IMG/VR virus record: IMGVR_UViG_3300036846_000537
Coordinates: 1-41,411 of that record
DNA length: 41,411 nucleotides
Source: a virus
Reading direction: 5' to 3' (one strand)
In this document: positions 15,667-24,441 of the stretch, piece after piece
Layout of the letters: each line of letters begins with the position of its first letter
Position numbering within the stretch: the first letter of the stretch is position 1
Position numbers and translations under genes: made by a program
Notes under the pieces: generated by a model
What the model saw: only the letters and a program-made list of their open reading frames with translations
Told to the model about the DNA's origin: nothing
The model's database searches: none

Positions 15667-15854
15667 GGGCCTTCCTGGCCCTGCCAGGATGCGTCTCGAT
15701 GGAGGGGCCCTGCGTTGTGCATGCGCAGCCTGGGCAACTCGACGTGCAGTGTGAGGCTGGTGGCTCCTCGACTGTGCTTGCTCCCTCCCATGCCATCGAT
15801 GCCACGTCGGAGGTGATCCATGCCAGCCCGCCATCCTCAAGCCCCGCGCGATGA
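15630..15854 (+). CDS. small lipoprotein, possible outer-spanin-like
   Basis: A 74-residue protein overlapping the 3' end of the small membrane-protein gene in another frame and the start of the next gene. The N-terminus (MLGALAARRAAVGAFLALPG then Cys21) looks like a lipoprotein signal: Arg8-Arg9, a hydrophobic stretch, and LPGC as an imperfect lipobox. The mature part is Ser/Pro/Ala-rich. A tiny lipoprotein nested with a holin-like gene recalls Rz1-type outer spanins, but no inner-membrane partner is apparent. Start chosen because the signal begins there. Confidence 0.5.
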   Translation: MLGALAARRAAVGAFLALPGCVSMEGPCVVHAQPGQLDVQCEAGGSSTVLAPSHAIDATSEVIHASPPSSSPAR

Positions 15855-16902
15855 CCCGCCCAGCGAACTACCGGCCCGCCTCAAGTGCGTCGATGGTCAG
15901 CTCGTCAAGCCCAACGGGGACCCGATCTTCCTGCACGGTCTGAACTTCGGCAACTTCGACGAGGATGATGAGAACGATTGCCCCTTCATCCGGGACATGG
16001 GGGCCAATGCCCTCCGGGAATGCCTGCGTTACTGGGGTAAGTGGAATGCCCCCGGCAAGCCCAATCCGGACTGTCGCGATATCGACTCGTTCGCTACCCT
16101 GAAGCGTGAGAAATTGTCACTCTGGCACGGGCGGATCGCCTCCGCCGGCCAGAACAAGCTGTGGTCTGTCCCCTTCATAGATTCCAATTGTGGTCAGTCG
16201 GGGAACAACACCGAGGAGGACATCGCTTATTGCGATCCGTATGGCGCCTGGGGAGCCCCCGGCCACAACTTCTACACTGACCCGGCGGCGCGGCGGCTGT
16301 TCGCCACCATTGTCTGGCCGGCCGTGGCGGCTCGCCTCCGCACCATGGCCCGGATCGGCATGCTGGAGCCCCATCCGGAGCCGGCGCATGGGCGTGATGA
16401 AAGTTGGGCTCCGCTCGTGGCGCAAGTCCAGTGGGACTGCATCCAAGGCATTCGCTCCGTTGATCCGGACACACCAATTCTGGTTGGCCCCCGACAGGGG
16501 TACGACAGTCGCTATCTTGAGGAGTGCTACCAGGCGCTGAAGGCCCTGGGGCCGCTCGACCCGAACCTTGTGTTCACCGGGAATTTGCTGAACCAATGGG
16601 TGACAGATCCGCCCCGATTTGACAAGGCGGTTCAGCGCATGAAGAACCTGCGAGACGAGCACGGTGTCTGTGTCTTCGTCCAGCAACTGGGCCGGAACTC
16701 CAGTGAAGACCCAGATGGATCCTTGCTGAAGCGGGCCATCGAGAAGCTGCGGGAAGCCAACATCGGCTACACACTGTGGCAATGGAAGCAGAACACCTCC
16801 AATCCGGGGAACATGGGCTTGAACTACAAGACCCCGGACGGGGTGGGGTGGATTCTCAAGCAGAACGAGGTGGATATTCTGAAGGCGGATTGGATCACTT
16901 AG
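15820..16902 (+). CDS. GH5-like TIM-barrel glycosidase homologue
   Basis: A 360-residue protein with an excellent ribosome site (GGAGGTGAT). The N-terminus (VDGQLVKPNGDPIFLHGLNF, about 24-43) is the classic opening of GH5-type cellulase-like barrels. RDMGANALRECLRYWGKW follows as strand 2; MLEPHPEP at 181-188 fits strand 4 with the acid/base Glu; DPDTPILVGPRQGYDS is strand 5, NLVFTGNLLNQWVTDP strand 6, and GYTLWQWKQ at 316-324 strand 8. In strand 7 (VCVFVQQLGRN, 283-293) the position expected for the nucleophile Glu is Gln289, so it may be inactive or a binder. No signal peptide. It may degrade or bind host surface glycans or, by position, serve in lysis. Confidence 0.7.
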   Translation: MPARHPQAPRDDPPSELPARLKCVDGQLVKPNGDPIFLHGLNFGNFDEDDENDCPFIRDMGANALRECLRYWGKWNAPGKPNPDCRDIDSFATLKREKLSLWHGRIASAGQNKLWSVPFIDSNCGQSGNNTEEDIAYCDPYGAWGAPGHNFYTDPAARRLFATIVWPAVAARLRTMARIGMLEPHPEPAHGRDESWAPLVAQVQWDCIQGIRSVDPDTPILVGPRQGYDSRYLEECYQALKALGPLDPNLVFTGNLLNQWVTDPPRFDKAVQRMKNLRDEHGVCVFVQQLGRNSSEDPDGSLLKRAIEKLREANIGYTLWQWKQNTSNPGNMGLNYKTPDGVGWILKQNEVDILKADWIT

Positions 16903-16969: not shown

Positions 16970-17134
16970 CTAAAGTGGGTCGTCAGGCGGGGACGGCGGA
17001 GCAGGGGACGGAGCCTCGGGCTGGTTTACCAACTGAGCCAGCTTGTTGAAGAGATTGTAGCTCCGGACGAGGGGCAGCGCGGCGAGGCCGTCGCAGAGAA
17101 GCGCCAGTTCGTCCTTGGTGAGTTCAACATTCAT
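16970..17134 (-). CDS. small helical protein, LTKDELALL motif
   Basis: A 54-residue protein, last gene of the leftward operon. It starts MNVELTKDELALLCDGLAAL, one amphipathic helix followed by a Pro-rich tail. It is similar to the rightward 15359-15532 product in length, in the LT-x(3)-L register and in the central L-x(3)-P. ATG 17134 is preferred to an in-frame start at 17161 because AAAGGGATCAG precedes it; it overlaps the upstream gene's end by 11 bases. Function unknown. Confidence 0.65.
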   Translation of the reverse strand: MNVELTKDELALLCDGLAALPLVRSYNLFNKLAQLVNQPEAPSPAPPSPPDDPL

Positions 17135-17435
17135 TCTGATCCCTTTCAGTTTCCAGTTCAATCAGTTTGTCTAGGTAGTGCCTGGCTTTGTGTAGATCCT
17201 CCAGTCCATTCTTGTCGGGATACCGCTCCAGATAAGCAGTAATGTTCCCAATGAAGTAGCTTGGCCCGTACAGGCGCCACTGTCGATCCCAGTGCTCCTC
17301 TCCTGGGATTTGTTCCCAGTTGTGGGCTTTCCCCTCCTTGCTCTTGTAATGGTCCCCGCCCACTTGCCGATCGTTGGCCTTAGTGGGTGTGGCCTGGGTC
17401 GGTACATGCTTCAGGGTTGACTTCGAAGCAGTCAT
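17124..17435 (-). CDS. DUF3310 family protein
   Basis: A 103-residue protein with the DUF3310 (SaV-like nucleotide kinase-type) signature: DRQVGGDHYKSKEGKAHNWE, then YFIGNITAYLERYPDKNGLE and DLHKARHYLDKLIELE. The family is very common in phages and is of uncertain function. ATG 17435 is chosen because AAAGGAG lies 7 bases upstream and the family starts close to this residue. The gene overlaps the end of the HD-domain gene by 56 bases. Its position next to nucleotide-metabolism genes fits a nucleotide-related role, but this is inference. Confidence 0.85.
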   Translation of the reverse strand: MTASKSTLKHVPTQATPTKANDRQVGGDHYKSKEGKAHNWEQIPGEEHWDRQWRLYGPSYFIGNITAYLERYPDKNGLEDLHKARHYLDKLIELETERDQNEC

Positions 17436-17925
17436 CAAACAACTCCTTTGCGAACGGGGTGGGGAACCCGAGTTGCTGTAGGATATGCGTGAGTCCCCGA
17501 TCACGTATTTCCATGGCGCCTCGATTGCCGTTGTAGGCCATCTGCTGGGCGCAGTAGAGACACATCTCGAACGTGTCAGACCATGCGAGAATCTTGCGTT
17601 CGTCATCCGTCAGGGCATCGAATATCCGTTGGATGTCAAACTTCTTCTGGAATTCCACTTCCAGTTTTCCCACGACATCGGCTAACCCTTTCTCTGCCCA
17701 CTTGGCAGGCGCAGGAATGTCGCCGGTAATGCTCTCTGCCAGGTCATGGCAAAGGCAAGCCATGAGCAGCCGAGGAGAAGCCCCCTCCGGGCCACTGATG
17801 AAATTGGCAATCATAGCGACACCCCATGAATGCCAGGCCAAATTCTGAGCGGGTACGGGGGTGGTATGGAATCTCTTGATGAGAGTACCTGCCTCATACA
17901 GGCTCAGGAATTGATTCGCAATCAT
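17380..17925 (-). CDS. HD-domain 5'-deoxynucleotidase (YfbR-like)
   Basis: A 181-residue metal-dependent phosphohydrolase of the YfbR-like HD superfamily. Metal ligands are visible: His32 (NLAWHSWG), His60-Asp61 (CLCHDLAESITGDIPAP) and Asp117 (WSDTFEM). The ESITGDIP motif is characteristic of 5'-deoxynucleotidases acting on dNMPs. In a phage that remodels thymidine it could trim host dNMP pools such as dTMP, as dTMPases do in hmdU phages; this is inference. ATG 17925 overlaps the stop of the ThyA-like gene (ATGA), and GGGAGAAGAAAG precedes it. Confidence 0.85.
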   Translation of the reverse strand: MIANQFLSLYEAGTLIKRFHTTPVPAQNLAWHSWGVAMIANFISGPEGASPRLLMACLCHDLAESITGDIPAPAKWAEKGLADVVGKLEVEFQKKFDIQRIFDALTDDERKILAWSDTFEMCLYCAQQMAYNGNRGAMEIRDRGLTHILQQLGFPTPFAKELFDDCFEVNPEACTDPGHTH

Positions 17926-18902
17926 GCTTTCTTCTCCCAACTGCGACGACCCAGCCATTGGCCGCACGCCATAGAGACAGCGTCATCCAGAATGGTTGCG
18001 GCGCTGAGTGTGGATCTGGACTTGTTATGGTTCTTGTAGTCCTCCCAGGATCTGTACATTGGCTGTAGCACCGACGTGATGAACGGGGCATCGTACAAGC
18101 CGTGGGGATCGTCACACCACTTCTCGAACTGCCTCAGATCGCCCTCCCAGTACTTGGAAGTGGTCACCGGAACATGGTGTTCTAGCTTGTAGCTTGCGTA
18201 GGGGTCAATGCTCGCAGGTGGGCTCTCCAGCAGAGGGAAATGCCATTGGTAAATGTGGAAGTCGTTGCTCATTTGGTAGTATCGACCCACCTGAACGTCC
18301 AATGCGTTCGCAACGAACTCTTGGAGAATCGACATGTGAACCGCGTTCGCGCCGTAGCAGCCCCAGATCATGTCGTTGGAGCGGCAACACACCGTCATGT
18401 TGAGCTTTTGATCTGCGACGTTGAAGTAGATCGTGGTGTTGCAGGGGATGTCCTTCGGCACTGTATGGCCCGTGTATTGGTCTGTGCGGGGGTCATACAT
18501 CATGACAACTGCCCTTCGGGACGAAGGATTGTCCATGAGGTGGTGGATCGCCCATTGGATTTGGTCTGTGCCGAAGCGTCGGCGCAGCCTGTGCCCGTAG
18601 GCCCCACCCAGGATACCGTTCTCTGCGAATTGGTGAACGTTGTGATTGAACTGCTCGACGAATGCCAGGTCGTCACGCCCCGACAACAGCCACACCGCCT
18701 CGAAGATGTGAAAGAACGGGTTGGCATCCCGGGCGTCGTTCAACAGCATCCTCTCCGTGGGATGCGAATAGACGGTCGTCACAGGGTAGGGGATTCGCTT
18801 CACCACCCCGTTGCGGCTGTGCGCCTCCTGCCCCAGCACCTTCATCTTCCACAGTGCTTCGGCGTACGCATCATTCACGTTTCTGGCTTGAATCACGAGC
18901 AT
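17922..18902 (-). CDS. ThyA-family enzyme, probable dUMP hydroxymethylase
   Basis: A 326-residue member of the thymidylate synthase / nucleotide hydroxymethylase family. DIPCNTTIYF carries catalytic Cys154; RSND at 174-177 is the nucleotide-phosphate/base loop; Gly181 and Asn186 (WGCYGANAVHMSIL) correspond to the G-x-x-x-N motif where Asn prefers uracil over cytosine; His216 and Tyr218 (SNDFHIY) contact the sugar. The residue after Cys is Asn, not the His of bacterial ThyA. With 5-hmdU kinase and transferase homologues nearby, the likely reaction is dUMP to 5-hydroxymethyl-dUMP with methylene-tetrahydrofolate; plain dTMP synthesis is the alternative. It overlaps both neighbours. Confidence 0.82.
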   Translation of the reverse strand: MLVIQARNVNDAYAEALWKMKVLGQEAHSRNGVVKRIPYPVTTVYSHPTERMLLNDARDANPFFHIFEAVWLLSGRDDLAFVEQFNHNVHQFAENGILGGAYGHRLRRRFGTDQIQWAIHHLMDNPSSRRAVVMMYDPRTDQYTGHTVPKDIPCNTTIYFNVADQKLNMTVCCRSNDMIWGCYGANAVHMSILQEFVANALDVQVGRYYQMSNDFHIYQWHFPLLESPPASIDPYASYKLEHHVPVTTSKYWEGDLRQFEKWCDDPHGLYDAPFITSVLQPMYRSWEDYKNHNKSRSTLSAATILDDAVSMACGQWLGRRSWEKKA

Positions 18903-19164
18903 TGTTGTGCTCCTTCAAGTGTGCGTTGAGTTCCGCCTTGATGCGGCGGGCATCCTCTCCCCTCCAGTGAGAGAGATTGTCTAGCGCAGTGGCGACCACC
19001 ATGTCGCCGTACTCCGCCCCATACATGTCTGCGCATGTATTGATGTGTAGCATAGCATGGACCCACGGAGAGGCGAAGCGGAACACGTTCGCGGAGGGCG
19101 GCTCAGTGGCCCAAATGGAGCAAATTTCCGCTGCGATCTGACACAAGTTACGCTTCTGATTCAT
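18871..19164 (-). CDS. small conserved phage protein upstream of ThyA homologue
   Basis: A 97-residue helical protein with FRFASPWVHAMLHINTCADM, then YGAEYGDMVVATALDNLSHW and RGEDARRIKAELNAHLKEH, a pattern I recall from small phage proteins with the same W-R-G-E-x-A-x-R-I-K-A-E-L ending. Function unknown. ATG 19164 is preferred because CGGAGAGAG precedes it and the more distal start would run through a promoter-like motif. It overlaps the ThyA-like gene by 32 bases, implying coupled translation. Confidence 0.75.
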   Translation of the reverse strand: MNQKRNLCQIAAEICSIWATEPPSANVFRFASPWVHAMLHINTCADMYGAEYGDMVVATALDNLSHWRGEDARRIKAELNAHLKEHNNARDSSQKRE

Positions 19165-19188
19165 CACTCTCTCCGGTGTGGAAACCTC

Positions 19189-19206
19189 GATTATACCCGG
19201 TCCAGG
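19189..19206 (-). promoter_or_regulatory. leftward promoter-like motif CCTG-N7-TATAAT, copy a
   Basis: On the minus strand this reads CCTGGACCGGGTATAATC. It ends about 25 bases before ATG 19164, and the TAA stop of the upstream gene is inside TATAAT. The same arrangement, CCTG then seven bases then TATA, occurs at 30523-30540, 32738-32754 and 32854-32870, with a looser copy at 22289-22306. The -10-like TATAAT suggests a promoter; no clear -35 box is seen. Confidence 0.5.
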
Positions 19207-20069
19207 CGCTTCGACGCGACGATCGCCTGGGGATGGTATTGGTTCTTCAGGCGTTCCCCGAAGTGCTTGGCACGGACATACTTGCTGAGCTCGCACAGAC
19301 AATTCTGTGTATTCTGCGCATCCAGGAAAATAGTAGTTTCATGGAGGATGAAGTTTTTGATGTCCCAGACTTCCTCTTGGAACTGTTCCAGGGGAATGGA
19401 ATGGGTGCGCTGGCGTTTGTGTATGAAATTGAGGCCCATGGTGGAGCCGGGGCCGGGGGCGCACCATGTATTCCAATCCACGGCGTCTTTCAGGAGGGGG
19501 GTCCACTTGAGGTCGGCAACGATCTGAGCAGACAGGAACAGGCCAATGCCGGGGCACATAATCTTGTCTGCGGCGATGTGCAAAGAATCGCCATGTTCAA
19601 CACGTACTCTCGCCTCAGCATGGTCTATCACACGTGCGATGATCGCTTCCTTGGTCTCCCCACCCTCAGAGTAGCCGCCCGTCACCATATAGGCCCCCGT
19701 CCAAGCCTTGCCCTTGCGAGCACGGATGGATTCGAACACCTCTAACCAATGCTTGCGATACTCAGAGGTCCAGCCAGCGAGGGGATATTTGAGTTGTTCC
19801 AGCGTGTCGGGCCAGTTCACCATGCGAGCAACGGTGAGGGCGGTCTGTACATGCTCCGGGAAATGCCGCTGCCCGACGCCAGCCCATTGCCAGATCCACT
19901 TCGTGACCTTGTCATCTTCCCTGCGGATGTTACACCACCTGTTATTGGCGATGATAGGGTCGTCCGTCCATGGGGGTGGCAATCGACTCAGTTCCTTGCG
20001 GACACGGATGAGCTCGCGCTGGCGAATCCAGTGGATGAGATCCCCTAGATATTGCGTGTTCTGAAGCAC
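19191..20069 (-). CDS. 5-hmdU DNA kinase helical-domain protein (HMUDK_hel)
   Basis: A 292-residue all-helical protein of the alpha-glutamyl/putrescinyl-thymine pyrophosphorylase superfamily, clade named HMUDK_hel (DNA-glycosylase-like fold). Family hallmarks are PPPWTDDPI (31-39), NIRREDDKVTKW (47-58), GIGLFLSAQIVADLKWTPLL (174-193), WCAPGPGSTMGLN (202-214) and CLCELSKYVRAKHFGERLKN (258-276). In known phages this domain works with a P-loop kinase on 5-hydroxymethyluracil in DNA, an early step in thymidine hypermodification. Here the kinase is a separate gene at 20461. The start is GTG 20069, supported by AAGGAG eight bases upstream. Confidence 0.85.
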   Translation of the reverse strand: MLQNTQYLGDLIHWIRQRELIRVRKELSRLPPPWTDDPIIANNRWCNIRREDDKVTKWIWQWAGVGQRHFPEHVQTALTVARMVNWPDTLEQLKYPLAGWTSEYRKHWLEVFESIRARKGKAWTGAYMVTGGYSEGGETKEAIIARVIDHAEARVRVEHGDSLHIAADKIMCPGIGLFLSAQIVADLKWTPLLKDAVDWNTWCAPGPGSTMGLNFIHKRQRTHSIPLEQFQEEVWDIKNFILHETTIFLDAQNTQNCLCELSKYVRAKHFGERLKNQYHPQAIVASKRLDRV

Positions 20070-20425
20070 GGGATGTCTCCTTGATAGTACCAGAGGAGGC
20101 CCACCATCCAGAACAAGCAGAGGGAAGCCGGTGCGTTGGCCTCCCTCATCATGTCGAGGGCGACGGGGTTGACGACGGCCCAGTATGCGGCGTAGCAGCC
20201 GTCAACGCCGAACCAGGTGAGGAGGAGCATGAGTGGGAAGGCCCGCCATCGCCGTTGGACGATGACGCGCATGCACCATGGAGCCGTGACGTAAGCCACG
20301 ACGGCCATGATAATGCTGACGGGGACATCCCAGTCGGAGGCCTTCTCAATGTAGGCCCCCACGATGAGCGCGCTCAGGCCGAGGCCGAGCGTCGCGAGTT
20401 TCCACGGGCGGAGGAGTTCGTTCAT
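20045..20425 (-). CDS. four-helix membrane protein
   Basis: A 126-residue hydrophobic protein with about four membrane segments: ATLGLGLSALIVGAYI, VSIIMAVVAYVTAPW, FPLMLLLTWFGVDGCYAAYW and LCLFWMVGLLWYYQ. It lies between two DNA-modification genes and overlaps the start of the next by 25 bases. ATG 20425 is the first Met before the hydrophobic part; the longer frame to 20620 would overlap the kinase gene and begins with unlikely sequence. The ribosome site is weak. Function unknown. Confidence 0.6.
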   Translation of the reverse strand: MNELLRPWKLATLGLGLSALIVGAYIEKASDWDVPVSIIMAVVAYVTAPWCMRVIVQRRWRAFPLMLLLTWFGVDGCYAAYWAVVNPVALDMMREANAPASLCLFWMVGLLWYYQGDIPCFRTRNI

Positions 20426-20460
20426 GGTCTGTGCAGAGGCGGAAAGCCCCCTGCATTCGG

Positions 20461-21072
20461 TTATTTCAGGGGGGTTGTGGGGGTAGTAGCCTCCTCGTCC
20501 TCCGTCGTCTGCATCCACTCGATGAGGAGCGGGTTGTTGGAATAGGCCACCCACTCCAGGTCCTTCACATTGTGGCCTTGGGCTATGAGTTTGTAGCGGA
20601 GCGTGTTGATGGTTTTCCATTTGTCTCGGGTCAGATCAGGGTTGAACTTGCGAGTATTGTTGGCCGCGGCCCGGCGCGCGATCACCCTCTCCAGGCAAAC
20701 GTCAATGGGGGTGTCGAGAAACGCATAAATGTAGTCGTCCCCGAACTGCTTTGAATGCTCCCCCATCTTGCCGTAGTAGGTCGAGGCCAGAAGGCCCTCC
20801 ATGAGGACATGCCCTTGGGGGTGGAGCTTGTCGATTAGGTCCATGACGGTCTGCGCGTCCGCAATGGTGTCGAGCCCCCCACAGATGGAGATGTATGAAC
20901 CCAGCACGAAGATCGGCTCAGTGATCGCGGGGTGGCTGTAGCGGTAGTACAGGATTTTGTTGGGCCCTGCTGCTTGCTCTCCGGTCAGGATGCAAGTGAT
21001 CATGAATTGCCGGATGACGGTGGTCTTGCCGGCGCCGGAGCAGCCGTGGAGTTTGATGATTTTATTGGCCAT
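20461..21072 (-). CDS. P-loop kinase, probable 5-hmdU DNA kinase
   Basis: A 203-residue P-loop NTPase starting MANKIIKLHGCSGAGKTTVI, with Walker A GCSGAGKT at 10-17, a central acidic segment (GHVLMEGLLASTYYGKM) and DTPIDVCLERVIARRAA, typical of small-molecule or nucleic-acid kinases with a DT-P-I/L-x(3)-L-x-R-V lid segment. Such kinases phosphorylate 5-hydroxymethyluracil in DNA in hypermodified phages, and the helical partner domain is encoded by the nearby 19191 gene. Substrate is inferred from context. ATG 21072 follows GAGAGAA and overlaps the methyltransferase-like gene by 11 bases. A nucleotide kinase for dNMPs is the alternative. Confidence 0.75.
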   Translation of the reverse strand: MANKIIKLHGCSGAGKTTVIRQFMITCILTGEQAAGPNKILYYRYSHPAITEPIFVLGSYISICGGLDTIADAQTVMDLIDKLHPQGHVLMEGLLASTYYGKMGEHSKQFGDDYIYAFLDTPIDVCLERVIARRAAANNTRKFNPDLTRDKWKTINTLRYKLIAQGHNVKDLEWVAYSNNPLLIEWMQTTEDEEATTPTTPLK

Positions 21073-21658
21073 GTTCTCTCGGTGTGGAAAAGAGGTAGTA
21101 AGTGGAGCCAAGCCCCTGATTGTGGTTGATTAGTCTGTACCCGTACACCTCCATGTATTTGGCGAACAACGCTGGGTAGGTTGTTCGAGTCGGGGTCATG
21201 CCGAACTTGGCATTGTAGAGACGTTGATGGTTCTGTAGATGGCACCAATAGGCCCCGTACTCCTGCATGAGCAGGAAACGCGCGTCGGAGTCCGCGATGT
21301 TGGTCAGTAGATAGATCCACTCCGGATCAGAGGCAATCGCGTTCAATGTGCCCTTGTGGGGGTCAATGATGACGAGGTCAGCATACTTAGACCAGTGGAA
21401 GGCGTTGGCCTCCACCGCCTCTGCGCGGGGTTCCTGGAAGTTCTCGATGCACCAGGGATCGACGTCAACGGAAACCCAGGACTTGGGCTCAAGCGCGCCC
21501 CACATCTTCATGGGGAGGAGCCCGATGCCGCCGAACAGATCGATCACCGACATCCCCTTGGGGAGGACAGTGCAGAGGTCGATGAAATATTGTGGATACT
21601 TCGCCACAGGACGCTCCATGTATTGGCTTGGATGCCCGAAGTTGCCTTTGACTTTCAT
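21062..21658 (-). CDS. SAM-dependent methyltransferase-like protein
   Basis: A 198-residue class I methyltransferase-like protein. VIDLFGGIG (38-46) is the SAM-binding loop, VDVDPWCIEN (64-73) the acidic strand-2 motif, and ADLVIIDPHKG (93-103) takes the place of the DPPY/DPPF motif IV of base N-methyltransferases. The altered motif IV suggests a different target or lost catalysis. It lies between two genes of the probable base-hypermodification set, so DNA or a modified thymidine is a plausible substrate; this is inference. The strong GGAGG site supports ATG 21658, which overlaps the upstream stop (ATGA). Confidence 0.65.
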   Translation of the reverse strand: MKVKGNFGHPSQYMERPVAKYPQYFIDLCTVLPKGMSVIDLFGGIGLLPMKMWGALEPKSWVSVDVDPWCIENFQEPRAEAVEANAFHWSKYADLVIIDPHKGTLNAIASDPEWIYLLTNIADSDARFLLMQEYGAYWCHLQNHQRLYNAKFGMTPTRTTYPALFAKYMEVYGYRLINHNQGLGSTYYLFSTPREHGQ

Positions 21659-21843
21659 TGCTTTCCTCCGGTGCTGCGATCGCGTTCGTCCGTCAGAGGT
21701 TGCGCGAGAGCAAGCATCGCTTCATAAGCTGCCTTCACGGGTTCTCTGTACCGGCGTTCGTTCAGAGGGGCTCTGTCGTCAAGCCACTCCGAAAGGATGT
21801 GAGCGCCCAAGGCAATTTGGGCCTCTGTTGCTTCATGGGTCAT
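21655..21843 (-). CDS. small hypothetical helical protein
   Basis: A 62-residue protein (MTHEATEAQIALGAHILSEW to a charged C-terminus) with an amphipathic helical pattern. ATG 21843 overlaps the upstream stop (ATGA) and is preceded by GGAG; the next gene is coupled in the same manner. Nothing in the sequence indicates a function. Confidence 0.65.
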   Translation of the reverse strand: MTHEATEAQIALGAHILSEWLDDRAPLNERRYREPVKAAYEAMLALAQPLTDERDRSTGGKQ

Positions 21844-22262
21844 TGCTTGAGCTCCACGTTGGCTGCGAAGGTTGGTTCTGTCCATTCCCCTTCCGGGATG
21901 GCATCAGGGATTTGTTCCAGAGTACACAACATCGTCAAAACCCCATGGCGTACCATGTGTGGAAGTCGGCGGATGTATTCATCGCACATGTCTCTCCCAT
22001 AAAAATACAGCCAGGAATAGTTGGCGTCGTTCTGGGCGGCCCAGGTGCTGAATAGATGCTCCGGTTCGTTGGGGCCGAAAATGCCCACCCCGTTCAGCCG
22101 GTACGCCGATCCATCAATGACTAGGTTCTTCCGTCCATGCGTGTACCAAACGTTGGCTAGGTGAAGGCAAACCCGAATCGGCCCCGACACCAACCATCCG
22201 ATGGGCAGTGTCTTGACCACTTCCTGGGTATTCCGCCCTGCGTAGAGCAGGTCAATGGTCAT
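21840..22262 (-). CDS. pyrimidine-dimer-glycosylase-like phage protein
   Basis: A 140-residue protein whose core STWAAQNDANYSWLYFYGRD, then MCDEYIRRLPHMVRHGVLTM, resembles a phage family with H-P-x-x-x-W-x-R-x-S-x-x-N-Y-x-W-L and later E-Y-x-x-R-Y, commonly labelled pyrimidine dimer DNA glycosylase-like. The first His-Pro of that motif is not present (FSTW instead), so activity is doubtful. It sits directly downstream of the SNF2 helicase within the DNA-modification region. ATG 22262 is preferred to GTG 22274 because GTGGAG lies just upstream. It could recognise modified pyrimidines; that is speculation. Confidence 0.5.
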   Translation of the reverse strand: MTIDLLYAGRNTQEVVKTLPIGWLVSGPIRVCLHLANVWYTHGRKNLVIDGSAYRLNGVGIFGPNEPEHLFSTWAAQNDANYSWLYFYGRDMCDEYIRRLPHMVRHGVLTMLCTLEQIPDAIPEGEWTEPTFAANVELKQ

Positions 22263-22288
22263 TGGTATCTCCACTAAAGGTGAACCCT

Positions 22289-22306
22289 ATTATAGCCGAT
22301 TCAATC
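22289..22306 (-). promoter_or_regulatory. leftward promoter-like motif, copy b
   Basis: On the minus strand GATTGAATCGGCTATAATAG lies about 27 bases before ATG 22262 and overlaps the stop region of the SNF2 gene. It shares CGG-x-TATAAT with the copies at 19189 and 30523 but lacks the CCTG block. Its downstream part (TATAAT, AGGG, TTCACC) resembles the rightward element at 35680. Probable promoter for the lower part of the leftward operon. Confidence 0.4.
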
Positions 22307-23672
22307 ACGACTCCGGGAGGGTTTTTAATGCGGCATTGAGCCGGCTTTGCACTGCGTCCTTCTCGGCTAGCGCCTTGCTCACATCTATGTCTTTGGTGCC
22401 CAGAGCCACGATGTGGTGGACCTCCACGACAGGGGACTTCTGTCCTTGCCTCCAGATCCGGGCGATGGCTTGCTGATACAACTCCAAGTCCCATGTAATG
22501 CCGTACCAGCAGATGTCCTTACACGTCTCTTGTAGGTTCAAGCCGTGCCCCATGGACCGGGGATGGCCTATCAGGAGGGGGATCAGTCCCTCGTTGAAGT
22601 CGTTGACGACGTTCAGCGTGTCATGCCGCTTGGAGATGTTGACCGCGTCAGGGAAGTTGTTCTCAATGAGGTTGGCGTCTTCAATGAACTCGTAGCAGAC
22701 AATAAGGGGCCGGCCCTGCATTTCTTCAACTAATTCGATCAAAGCCTTCAGCTTCTCATTGTGTACATAGTGGGAGACGTGGTCTTCATCATAGATGAAC
22801 CCATTGGCGACCTGGCGGAGCTTCGTGCCGAGCGCAGCCGTGTTGAACACGGGAATGGTGGCGTCCTGTAGGGCTAACAGGAAATTTCGCTCCAGTTCTT
22901 TGTACAGCTTCTGAATCCCGGGTGGAAGCGTGATGTCAATGTAGTTGTTAATCAACTCTGGCATCTCAAGGTAGTCCACCGCCATCATGCGGAGGAGGAT
23001 AGGCTTGACGGCCGCATAAATGCGCGCCTCCGCGCCCTCCGCCAGAATCCACGAGAATCCATCCCGTGATTGGTACATGTAACGTTGACGGAAATGGGTG
23101 ATAAAGCGGCCCAGCGCGGCGCCCAAATCGCATACGTACACCTGTCCAAAGAGGTCCGCAAGGCCATTAGGGGCGGGGGTGCCAGTAAGGACGATACGTC
23201 GTGTGAACTTGTGTAAATGCTTTTTAAGAGCTTTGAACCTCTGAGTCTGGGTGTCCTTGAATTTTGTGCTCTCATCAACGACGAGCATGTCAAGATTGAG
23301 GTATTGCCACGGGTCGAGCTCAAGAAGACGGACGAGCGACTCAGGATTGATGACATACACATCATGCTTCTCCTTCAGGAGTTCAATGCGTTCCTCTGAC
23401 GTCATCTCACAGAGGACGCATACATCCAACCGGTAGAAGTCAGACCACTTCTCCACCTCCACCGGCCAGACTGTCTTCGCTACACGAACGGGGGCCACCA
23501 CCAGCGCGTGCTGAGTATGCCCCTCATCAATCAGAAAGTCGATGGCGGCGAGCGTCGTTGAGGTCTTCCCCAGGCCTGGATCCAACAGCAGACCCGAGTG
23601 CGGATTCTCAATCAGCCACTGCAGTGCGGCCAGCTGATAGTTCCTTGGCGTCCAGGGTTGCGGGGCGTTCAT
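22305..23672 (-). CDS. SNF2-family DNA helicase/translocase
   Basis: A 455-residue superfamily 2 protein of the SNF2 type found in many phages. Motif I is DPGLGKTSTT (31-40), motif II VVDEST (131-136), motif III LTGTPAPNG (162-170), and motif VI QAIARIWRQGQ (401-411). It should be an ATP-driven duplex-DNA translocase in recombination, repair or replication. ATG 23672 is chosen because CGGAG lies upstream and the helicase core starts at residue 11; the longer frame to 23762 would run into the ADDT gene. It overlaps that gene's end by 65 bases. Confidence 0.9.
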   Translation of the reverse strand: MNAPQPWTPRNYQLAALQWLIENPHSGLLLDPGLGKTSTTLAAIDFLIDEGHTQHALVVAPVRVAKTVWPVEVEKWSDFYRLDVCVLCEMTSEERIELLKEKHDVYVINPESLVRLLELDPWQYLNLDMLVVDESTKFKDTQTQRFKALKKHLHKFTRRIVLTGTPAPNGLADLFGQVYVCDLGAALGRFITHFRQRYMYQSRDGFSWILAEGAEARIYAAVKPILLRMMAVDYLEMPELINNYIDITLPPGIQKLYKELERNFLLALQDATIPVFNTAALGTKLRQVANGFIYDEDHVSHYVHNEKLKALIELVEEMQGRPLIVCYEFIEDANLIENNFPDAVNISKRHDTLNVVNDFNEGLIPLLIGHPRSMGHGLNLQETCKDICWYGITWDLELYQQAIARIWRQGQKSPVVEVHHIVALGTKDIDVSKALAEKDAVQSRLNAALKTLPES

Positions 23673-24441
23673 ACAGTCTCCGATCGATGCGAAGAGGCAG
23701 GAACTGTTGAAAGACGGGCCACTTAGCAAGTTGCTCGTGCTTGGTGTCGATGTCGTCGCCAATCACGTGGGTCTTGGTGATGCCCCACCCCTTCAGCATA
23801 CAGAGGATGGTCTCTGCCTCGGCATAGGAGCATTGCGCTCCGGGCTTGCCGGGGGCTTCAAACTGGCTGATGTACTCTACGACCATGTCCATCACTTCGT
23901 GAAGAGTCAGACTTGGCCAGAGGATCGCGGCGCACTTGCGGGGATCATCCGGACAGTATTTGAGGGTCTCTACAAGACTCAATGAAATCGGGTTGCCGAA
24001 GCATCTGTCTTGGAAATCCATGACTTTCCACACGAAATAGGGGCCAAACCCGCATCGTTGGAACTTCTCCTTGAACACTTGTACTAGATCCGTGTAGCTT
24101 GAAGCCCACATTGATCTCCACATAGCGTACGGATGCCCCCGTGCGGACAGGTTCTGTACATAGGTCAGGCCGAGGACGCCTCGGGAGTGCCGCCGTTCTG
24201 TTCCCCTCTGGAAACTGACATAGTTATCCAGCATGTATTCCCAGAAGGTGGCTCCTGTTGTCTGCTCGGCGGCGGCCACTGCTCCGCCCATGTCGTAGAA
24301 GCAGAGATAGTTGAGGGCGAATCGGATGGCCCACTCTTCACCCAGGCGTGTCTTTGCCGCGTACAAGAAATCGTAGGTGGGGTCCAGATCGTGGGTTTCG
24401 ATCGTTGCTTTCGCGAATTGCTTCCAGTTCCTTATCAACAT
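23608..24441 (-). CDS. amino acid/polyamine:DNA transferase (ADDT) homologue
   Basis: A 277-residue all-helical protein resembling the alpha-glutamyl/putrescinyl-thymine pyrophosphorylase clade 2 (ADDT). Hallmarks are the N-terminal WKQFAKATIETHDLDPTYDF (about 6-25), FQRGTERRHSRGVLGLTYVQ (77-96) and GFGPYFVWKVMDFQDRCFGN (131-150), close to the F-G-P-W-x-x-F-K-V-x-D-M-x-E-R pattern of the family. Such enzymes displace pyrophosphate from 5-(pyrophosphoryloxymethyl)uracil in DNA and attach glycine, putrescine or another amine. Which amine this one uses is unknown. ATG 24441 lies within the VRR-NUC gene (104-base overlap), a long overlap for this genome. Confidence 0.78.
   Translation of the reverse strand: MLIRNWKQFAKATIETHDLDPTYDFLYAAKTRLGEEWAIRFALNYLCFYDMGGAVAAAEQTTGATFWEYMLDNYVSFQRGTERRHSRGVLGLTYVQNLSARGHPYAMWRSMWASSYTDLVQVFKEKFQRCGFGPYFVWKVMDFQDRCFGNPISLSLVETLKYCPDDPRKCAAILWPSLTLHEVMDMVVEYISQFEAPGKPGAQCSYAEAETILCMLKGWGITKTHVIGDDIDTKHEQLAKWPVFQQFLPLRIDRRLYERPATLDAKELSAGRTAVAD

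Follow-up and report, generated by a model that had tools for sequence, protein, structure and literature searches.

The virus record IMG/VR IMGVR_UViG_3300036846_000537, a stretch of 41,411 bases that was analyzed whole and is hereafter called the window, carries a minus-strand operon that, by homology, very probably encodes a thymidine hypermodification enzyme set of the type known from Pseudomonas phage M6. Next to its kinase gene lies a gene (21062-21658) for a small protein, MT, whose predicted structure is a class I S-adenosylmethionine (SAM)-dependent methyltransferase fold. The previously unclassified MT family keeps recurring in thymidine-hypermodification operons, and a role for it in the pathway is rather likely. 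Thymidine hypermodification had already been proposed in an initial annotation of this DNA, and that interpretation is supported by the homology searches described here.

Core enzymes of the operon

The core genes were assigned by hmmscan against Pfam, for which the curated cut-offs are 25 bits for HMUDK_hel, 27 bits for HMUDK_HMUD1, and 26.2 bits for ADDT (amino acid:DNA transferase). The product of 19191-20069 matched HMUDK_hel at 115.8 bits, and those of 23608-24441 and 17922-18902 matched ADDT and Thymidylat_synt, respectively, also above the cut-offs (scores in Table 1). The product of 20461-21111 matched HMUDK_HMUD1, the family of the 5-hydroxymethyldeoxyuridine (5-hmdU) DNA kinase, only 1.5 bits above its cut-off. 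The initial annotation had placed a ThyA-family gene, a P-loop kinase gene, and two genes for helical proteins on one strand and had named a family for each; coordinates and quoted motifs agree, each gene belongs to the family named for it, and both helical proteins have significant family matches. The HMUDK_hel, HMUDK_HMUD1, and ADDT profiles had no match in any of 14 control genomes, and HMUDK_hel was found in nine of 11 reference records, those of Rhodoferax phage P26218 and podovirus ctfPj964 being the two without it.

In tblastn searches, the kinase matched M6 gp54 (E 3e-16) and the ADDT protein matched M6 gp51 (E 1e-11). The closest solved relative of the ADDT protein is 8z2m, named "Glycinyltransferase" (E 1e-12), and another solved structure, 25qc, named "Amino acid:DNA transferase", matches as well (E 1e-11). 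The closest solved relatives of the ThyA-family protein are cytidine monophosphate 5-hydroxymethylases, and the protein itself is probably a deoxyuridine monophosphate (dUMP) hydroxymethylase.

The operon genes abut or overlap, several have plausible ribosome-binding sites, and the 41,411-base record also holds DNA polymerase A, primase, and terminase genes. It is very improbable that the operon is non-functional or makes 5-hmdU only, with its later genes as decaying passengers: the kinase score barely above the cut-off would fit such decay, but all operon reading frames are intact, residues conserved across the core families are retained, and the gene order is kept in the nearest relatives at about 31-74% protein identity.

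The initial annotation had also pointed to separate genes for the kinase and helical parts. The split is real and no peculiarity, as gp54/gp55 of M6 and Pam3_49/Pam3_50 of Pseudanabaena phage Pam3 are split in the same way, and it was rejected as a novelty. Such 5-hmdU DNA kinases are commonly annotated as "terminase small subunit" (phrog_800; many Yua-like phages, and M6 gp54 as well), and this annotation seems to be an error that has spread. In five related loci (L054, L059, L061, L063, and L066), two kinase-family open reading frames (ORFs) lie in tandem upstream of HMUDK_hel, for instance at L059:8807-9966, and the second of them may differ in role.

Profiles for the pyridoxal 5'-phosphate (PLP) enzyme, the radical-SAM enzyme, and Nmad5 of M6/Pam3, and a profile seeded on the flavin-branch oxidoreductase of Rhizobium phage RHph_TM26, had no match in the window or the compared relatives. 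Likewise, neither of the Pfam families Radical_SAM and PALP matched anything in the window or in three relatives of 41-45 kb; both do match in M6 and Pam3. The earlier remark that no PLP or radical-SAM enzyme was visible thus holds across the whole 41.4 kb, so the window lacks the genes that mark the branch of M6 leading to 5-(2-aminoethyl)deoxyuridine (5-NedU). The same annotation had suggested that the final group may be simple or unusual; this can be sharpened, as the operon holds a recurrent candidate tailoring enzyme of class I SAM-methyltransferase fold, which, together with the HD 5'-nucleotidase gene, was missing from the earlier list of operon members.

The methyltransferase-like family and its linkage to the core genes

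MT is unassigned in Pfam, PHROGs, and NCBIfam and was rejected as a member of a known family, with weak generic methyltransferase matches at most in these databases and among PDB sequence profiles, and a weak mad2 match in PADLOC. Its AlphaFold2 model (predicted local distance difference test, pLDDT, 82; predicted template-modeling score, pTM, 0.84) gave 990 Foldseek matches in the PDB at E<=0.001, the best being SAM-dependent methyltransferases at template-modeling (TM) scores of 0.5-0.6, and two uncultured-phage "AdoMet_MTases" proteins matched at TM 0.78-0.79. The model has the Rossmann-type methyltransferase fold with a GxG loop and an acidic residue after strand 2. The most conserved residues of the family include G44, G46, and D67 (96% conserved) together with D94, T104, H140, Y148, and Y161; of these, T104 and H140 are candidate active-site residues. 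In the position of motif IV, where DNA amino-methyltransferases (N6A/N4C) have a DPPY/SPPY-type motif, the family has IDPH, CEFS, MDMS, or LEFN, and the window protein contains no PC dipeptide, the catalytic motif of C5-methyltransferases.

An IMG/VR scan with an HMUDK_hel alignment yielded 80 loci, and a profile built from five MT members was searched against 87 records, some of which are near-copies. MT relatives were found in 29 of these records, including Pam3_39 in the first round (E 2e-13), and in 28 of the 29 the gene lies no more than 400 nucleotides from a core gene. It occupies at least four slots: between p21840, a small conserved protein, and the kinase; between kinase and HMUDK_hel; between HMUDK_hel and ThyA (or p18871); and between p21840 and ADDT. 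Two divergent subtypes, homologous to each other (hhalign E 4e-13), sit in different slots, and no locus carries both. Within the supported HMUDK_hel-tree clade of the window, two loci (L002/L017) carry the second subtype and the other MT-bearing members the first; a subtype swap between close sisters is repeated in L025/L026 versus L027/L028. The full core is present in 37 loci, of which 19 have MT, three have the flavoenzyme, 15 have neither, and none has both. Clustering of neighboring ORFs in MT-less loci gave mainly replication, structural, and unassigned genes, and no other recurrent tailoring gene was recognized among the clusters, most of which were judged by sequence alone.

Two MT-seeded scans returned 24 loci, 22 of them with hypermodification genes; these scans were pattern-based and biased to close relatives, which leaves exclusivity of the family to such operons unproved. 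Single-sequence IMG/VR scans with the window kinase or MT returned no relatives, though relatives exist in the loci reached through HMUDK_hel. Among annotated phages, tblastn with MT members found none besides Pam3, itself a hypermodification phage, and when bacteria and archaea were scanned with one genome per species, no member turned up at that sensitivity. The protein p21840 occurs in 19 loci, each with MT; the guess from its sequence that it is a DNA-glycosylase relative is unsupported, its AlphaFold2 model having no PDB fold match.

Proposed pathway and alternative explanations

In the proposed pathway, the ThyA-family enzyme would convert dUMP to 5-hydroxymethyl-dUMP, while the HD nucleotidase probably keeps deoxythymidine monophosphate low. 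The 5-hmdU would be incorporated into DNA at replication and, as homology suggests, phosphorylated within the polymer by the P-loop kinase together with HMUDK_hel. The published model for such phages has 5-hmdU entering DNA first, with phosphorylation by the 5-hmdU DNA kinase and derivatization to follow (PMC6449724), and 5-hmdU kinase activity on DNA has been described (PMC7653180). Given the match of the ADDT protein to the solved "Glycinyltransferase", the operon is expected to phosphorylate 5-hmdU in the polymer and to attach an amino acid, in the simplest case glycine, the amine of which would displace the phosphate. Free amino acids are reportedly attached and then sculpted in such pathways, according to Lee and colleagues in 2021. 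The next step in M6 falls to radical-SAM and PLP enzymes, both absent from the window phage, and MT may take that place through SAM-dependent methylation of the appended amino acid at its amine or carboxylate, as its fold and association suggest. Precedents exist among enzymes of the tRNA wobble uridine: MnmC and MnmM methylate the amine of its side chains with SAM (PMC3648344, PMC9976899), and CmoM methylates a carboxylate on this nucleoside, likewise with SAM (PMC12783734), so that by analogy a methylation step is chemically reasonable.

This scheme has as its direct basis the gene identities by homology, the operon linkage, the MT fold, and the recurrent association; we infer the order of the reactions from published M6 biochemistry, and likewise the glycine substrate and the methylation of the adduct. 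The chance that MT methylates the adduct, the whole being an M6-type pathway plus a methylation step, is judged about even.

A somewhat unlikely alternative is that the pathway ends at ADDT, the base being a plain amino-acid-thymidine, and that the target of MT lies elsewhere, for instance in RNA, a host molecule, or an ordinary base. With glycine, the base would be N-alpha-glycyl-thymidine, which we take to correspond, in DNA, to the tRNA nucleoside 5-carboxymethylaminomethyluridine (cmnm5U). The name of the closest solved ADDT relative agrees with such an end point, as do the 15 full-core loci with neither MT nor flavoenzyme, some of which (such as L030, L036, and L040) are compact and leave little room for an extra gene. 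Against it, MT is embedded in the operon, shifts slots within it, and is present as a single copy drawn from two interchangeable subtypes, and it has neither the DPPY motif seen in DNA amino-methyltransferases nor the PC motif seen in C5-methyltransferases.

Clearly unlikely is a second alternative, in which the group added by ADDT is not glycine but another amino acid or amine (for instance serine, or an amine resembling ornithine or putrescine), to be methylated by MT if MT is active. It draws on ADDT homologs in phages with differing adducts, including phiW-14, the DNA of which carries putrescinyl-thymidine (PMC6449724), and on the identity of only about 26% to the M6 protein, a level at which substrate choice is unreadable from sequence; the solved structure named glycinyltransferase and M6 gp51, the nearest characterized context, argue for glycine.

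Low ADDT identity, the phiW-14 adduct, and the lack of MT in 15 of 37 full-core loci also weigh against methylation of a glycine adduct by MT, and further findings do so too. The flavoenzyme occurs in only three loci, so its exclusion from MT loci carries little weight. The remaining two of the 24 loci from the MT-seeded scans (L107 and L108) pair a distant MT with an adjacent PALP enzyme and have no detectable core gene. The catalytic region of MT matches no known motif and varies (IDPHKGT, CEFSDNT, MDMSVGT, LEFNSMT), so that methyl transfer is deduced from the fold. Lastly, six-base palindromes containing T are depleted (703 observed vs 930 expected), and T-free ones likewise (310 vs 373); as the former are depleted no less than the latter, there is no footprint of T-specific restriction protection, and palindrome depletion was rejected as a sign of it.

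In L107:5342-7010 and L108:9743-11411, the distant MT is immediately followed by the PALP gene, which is threonine-dehydratase-like, and preceded by another methyltransferase-like gene; ADDT, kinase, and ThyA were undetected on both contigs.

Tentatively, and with a chance somewhat short of even, the MT family can be regarded as a further tailoring class beside the radical-SAM, PLP, flavin, and acetyltransferase enzymes, making a methylated amino-acid-thymidine, a base that to our knowledge is known in no DNA. If so, the glycine-derived methylated product would be C13H19N3O7 (329.122 Da), a specific base detectable by mass, and the family would supply an enzyme for DNA modification and add to the parallels between tRNA wobble-uridine modification and the chemistry of phage DNA. 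With each extra tailoring enzyme in these pathways comes a new nucleotide in the phage genome, and bases of this kind help the DNA withstand host nucleases. The simplest version of the pathway would most naturally be expected in the 15 core-only loci.

Operon layout and comparison with known systems

The operon and its flanks are listed in Table 1. The likelier start of the kinase gene is the ATG at 21072, inside the longer ORF, and that of the HD gene the ATG at 17925. At 15820-16902, the end of the rightward module, lies a gene for a protein with a cellulase-like (GH5) domain, perhaps a tail or depolymerase protein.

Table 1. Features of the hypermodification operon and adjoining genes in the window.
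Feature	Coordinates	Strand	Basis
ADDT, amino acid:DNA transferase	23608..24441	-	Pfam PF18724 34.0 bits; PDB 8z2m; M6 gp51 25.8% identity
SNF2-type helicase, conserved neighbor, probably replication (context)	22305..23672	-	Pfam/PHROGs; position kept in relatives
p21840 ("PYR"), conserved small protein, possible MT partner	21840..22262	-	Co-occurrence with MT; AlphaFold2 pTM 0.85; weak PHROG "DNA binding protein"
Small ORF, end overlaps MT start (ATGA)	21655..21885	-	No PHROG match
MT, class I SAM-methyltransferase-fold protein, candidate tailoring enzyme	21062..21658	-	AlphaFold2, Foldseek, recurrent linkage
5-hmdU DNA kinase (P-loop, GCSGAGKT)	20461..21072	-	PF18748 28.5 bits; M6 gp54 33.7% identity
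Small hydrophobic, probably membrane, protein between kinase and HMUDK_hel	20045..20425	-	No Pfam/PHROG family match; not conserved in compared relatives
HMUDK_hel (aGPT-Pplase1) protein	19191..20069	-	PF18723 E 3e-33; phages including Pam3 and phiW-14
p18871, small protein conserved in this phage group	18871..19164	-	phrog_13953 E 1e-13; 20 loci
ThyA-family pyrimidine hydroxymethylase, probably dUMP hydroxymethylase	17922..18902	-	PF00303 85 bits; phrog_5131 E 5e-92
HD-domain 5'-deoxynucleotidase (YfbR-like)	17380..17925	-	PF13023 and PF12917; after ThyA in M6, Pam3, and most loci
DUF3310 protein, conserved neighbor (context)	17124..17435	-	PF11753; position kept in relatives

In the nearest relatives, the gene order is PolA, PDDEXK, nuclease, ADDT, SNF2, p21840, (MT), kinase, HMUDK_hel, p18871, ThyA, HD, and DUF3310. 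In one related locus (L008:4506-5060), the SNF2 helicase gene is interrupted by an insertion, and the inserted ORF resembles an HNH homing endonuclease.

The M6 DNA contains 5-NedU (PMC6449724), and its pathway (gp51, gp52, gp53, gp54, gp55, gp58, and gp59) is encoded in the order ADDT, PLP, radical SAM, kinase, HMUDK_hel, Nmad5, ThyA, and HD. Homologous ADDT, separate kinase and HMUDK_hel, ThyA-family, and HD genes are present in both M6 and the window, which stems from another phage, about 41 kb in size, whereas the PLP, radical-SAM, and Nmad5 genes are in M6 alone, and MT and p21840 were not found in the M6 region. The Pam3 hypermodification cluster has the same core as the window plus the MT relative Pam3_39, but it additionally has PLP and radical-SAM enzymes and Nmad5, and about 5 kb separates its MT from ADDT.

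In P26218 (L006) and ctfPj964 (L011), phages of 36-38 kb, SNF2, ADDT, kinase, ThyA, and HD are ordered as in the window, but HMUDK_hel is missing from the whole record and MT from the fetched stretch. HMUDK_hel is therefore not always present, which suggests that this group can do without it or has a substitute for it. The tRNA enzymes MnmC, MnmM, and CmoM use SAM to methylate an amine or carboxylate in the uracil C5 side chain (PMC3648344, PMC9976899, PMC12783734), as is proposed for MT; the likeness is one of chemistry only, with no specific sequence relationship found to MT. In RHph_TM26, of the flavoenzyme branch, ADDT, kinase, HMUDK_hel, and ThyA are as in the window, and a flavin adenine dinucleotide oxidoreductase stands in place of MT. 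The window operon belongs to a known kind of system and has a probable new tailoring branch.

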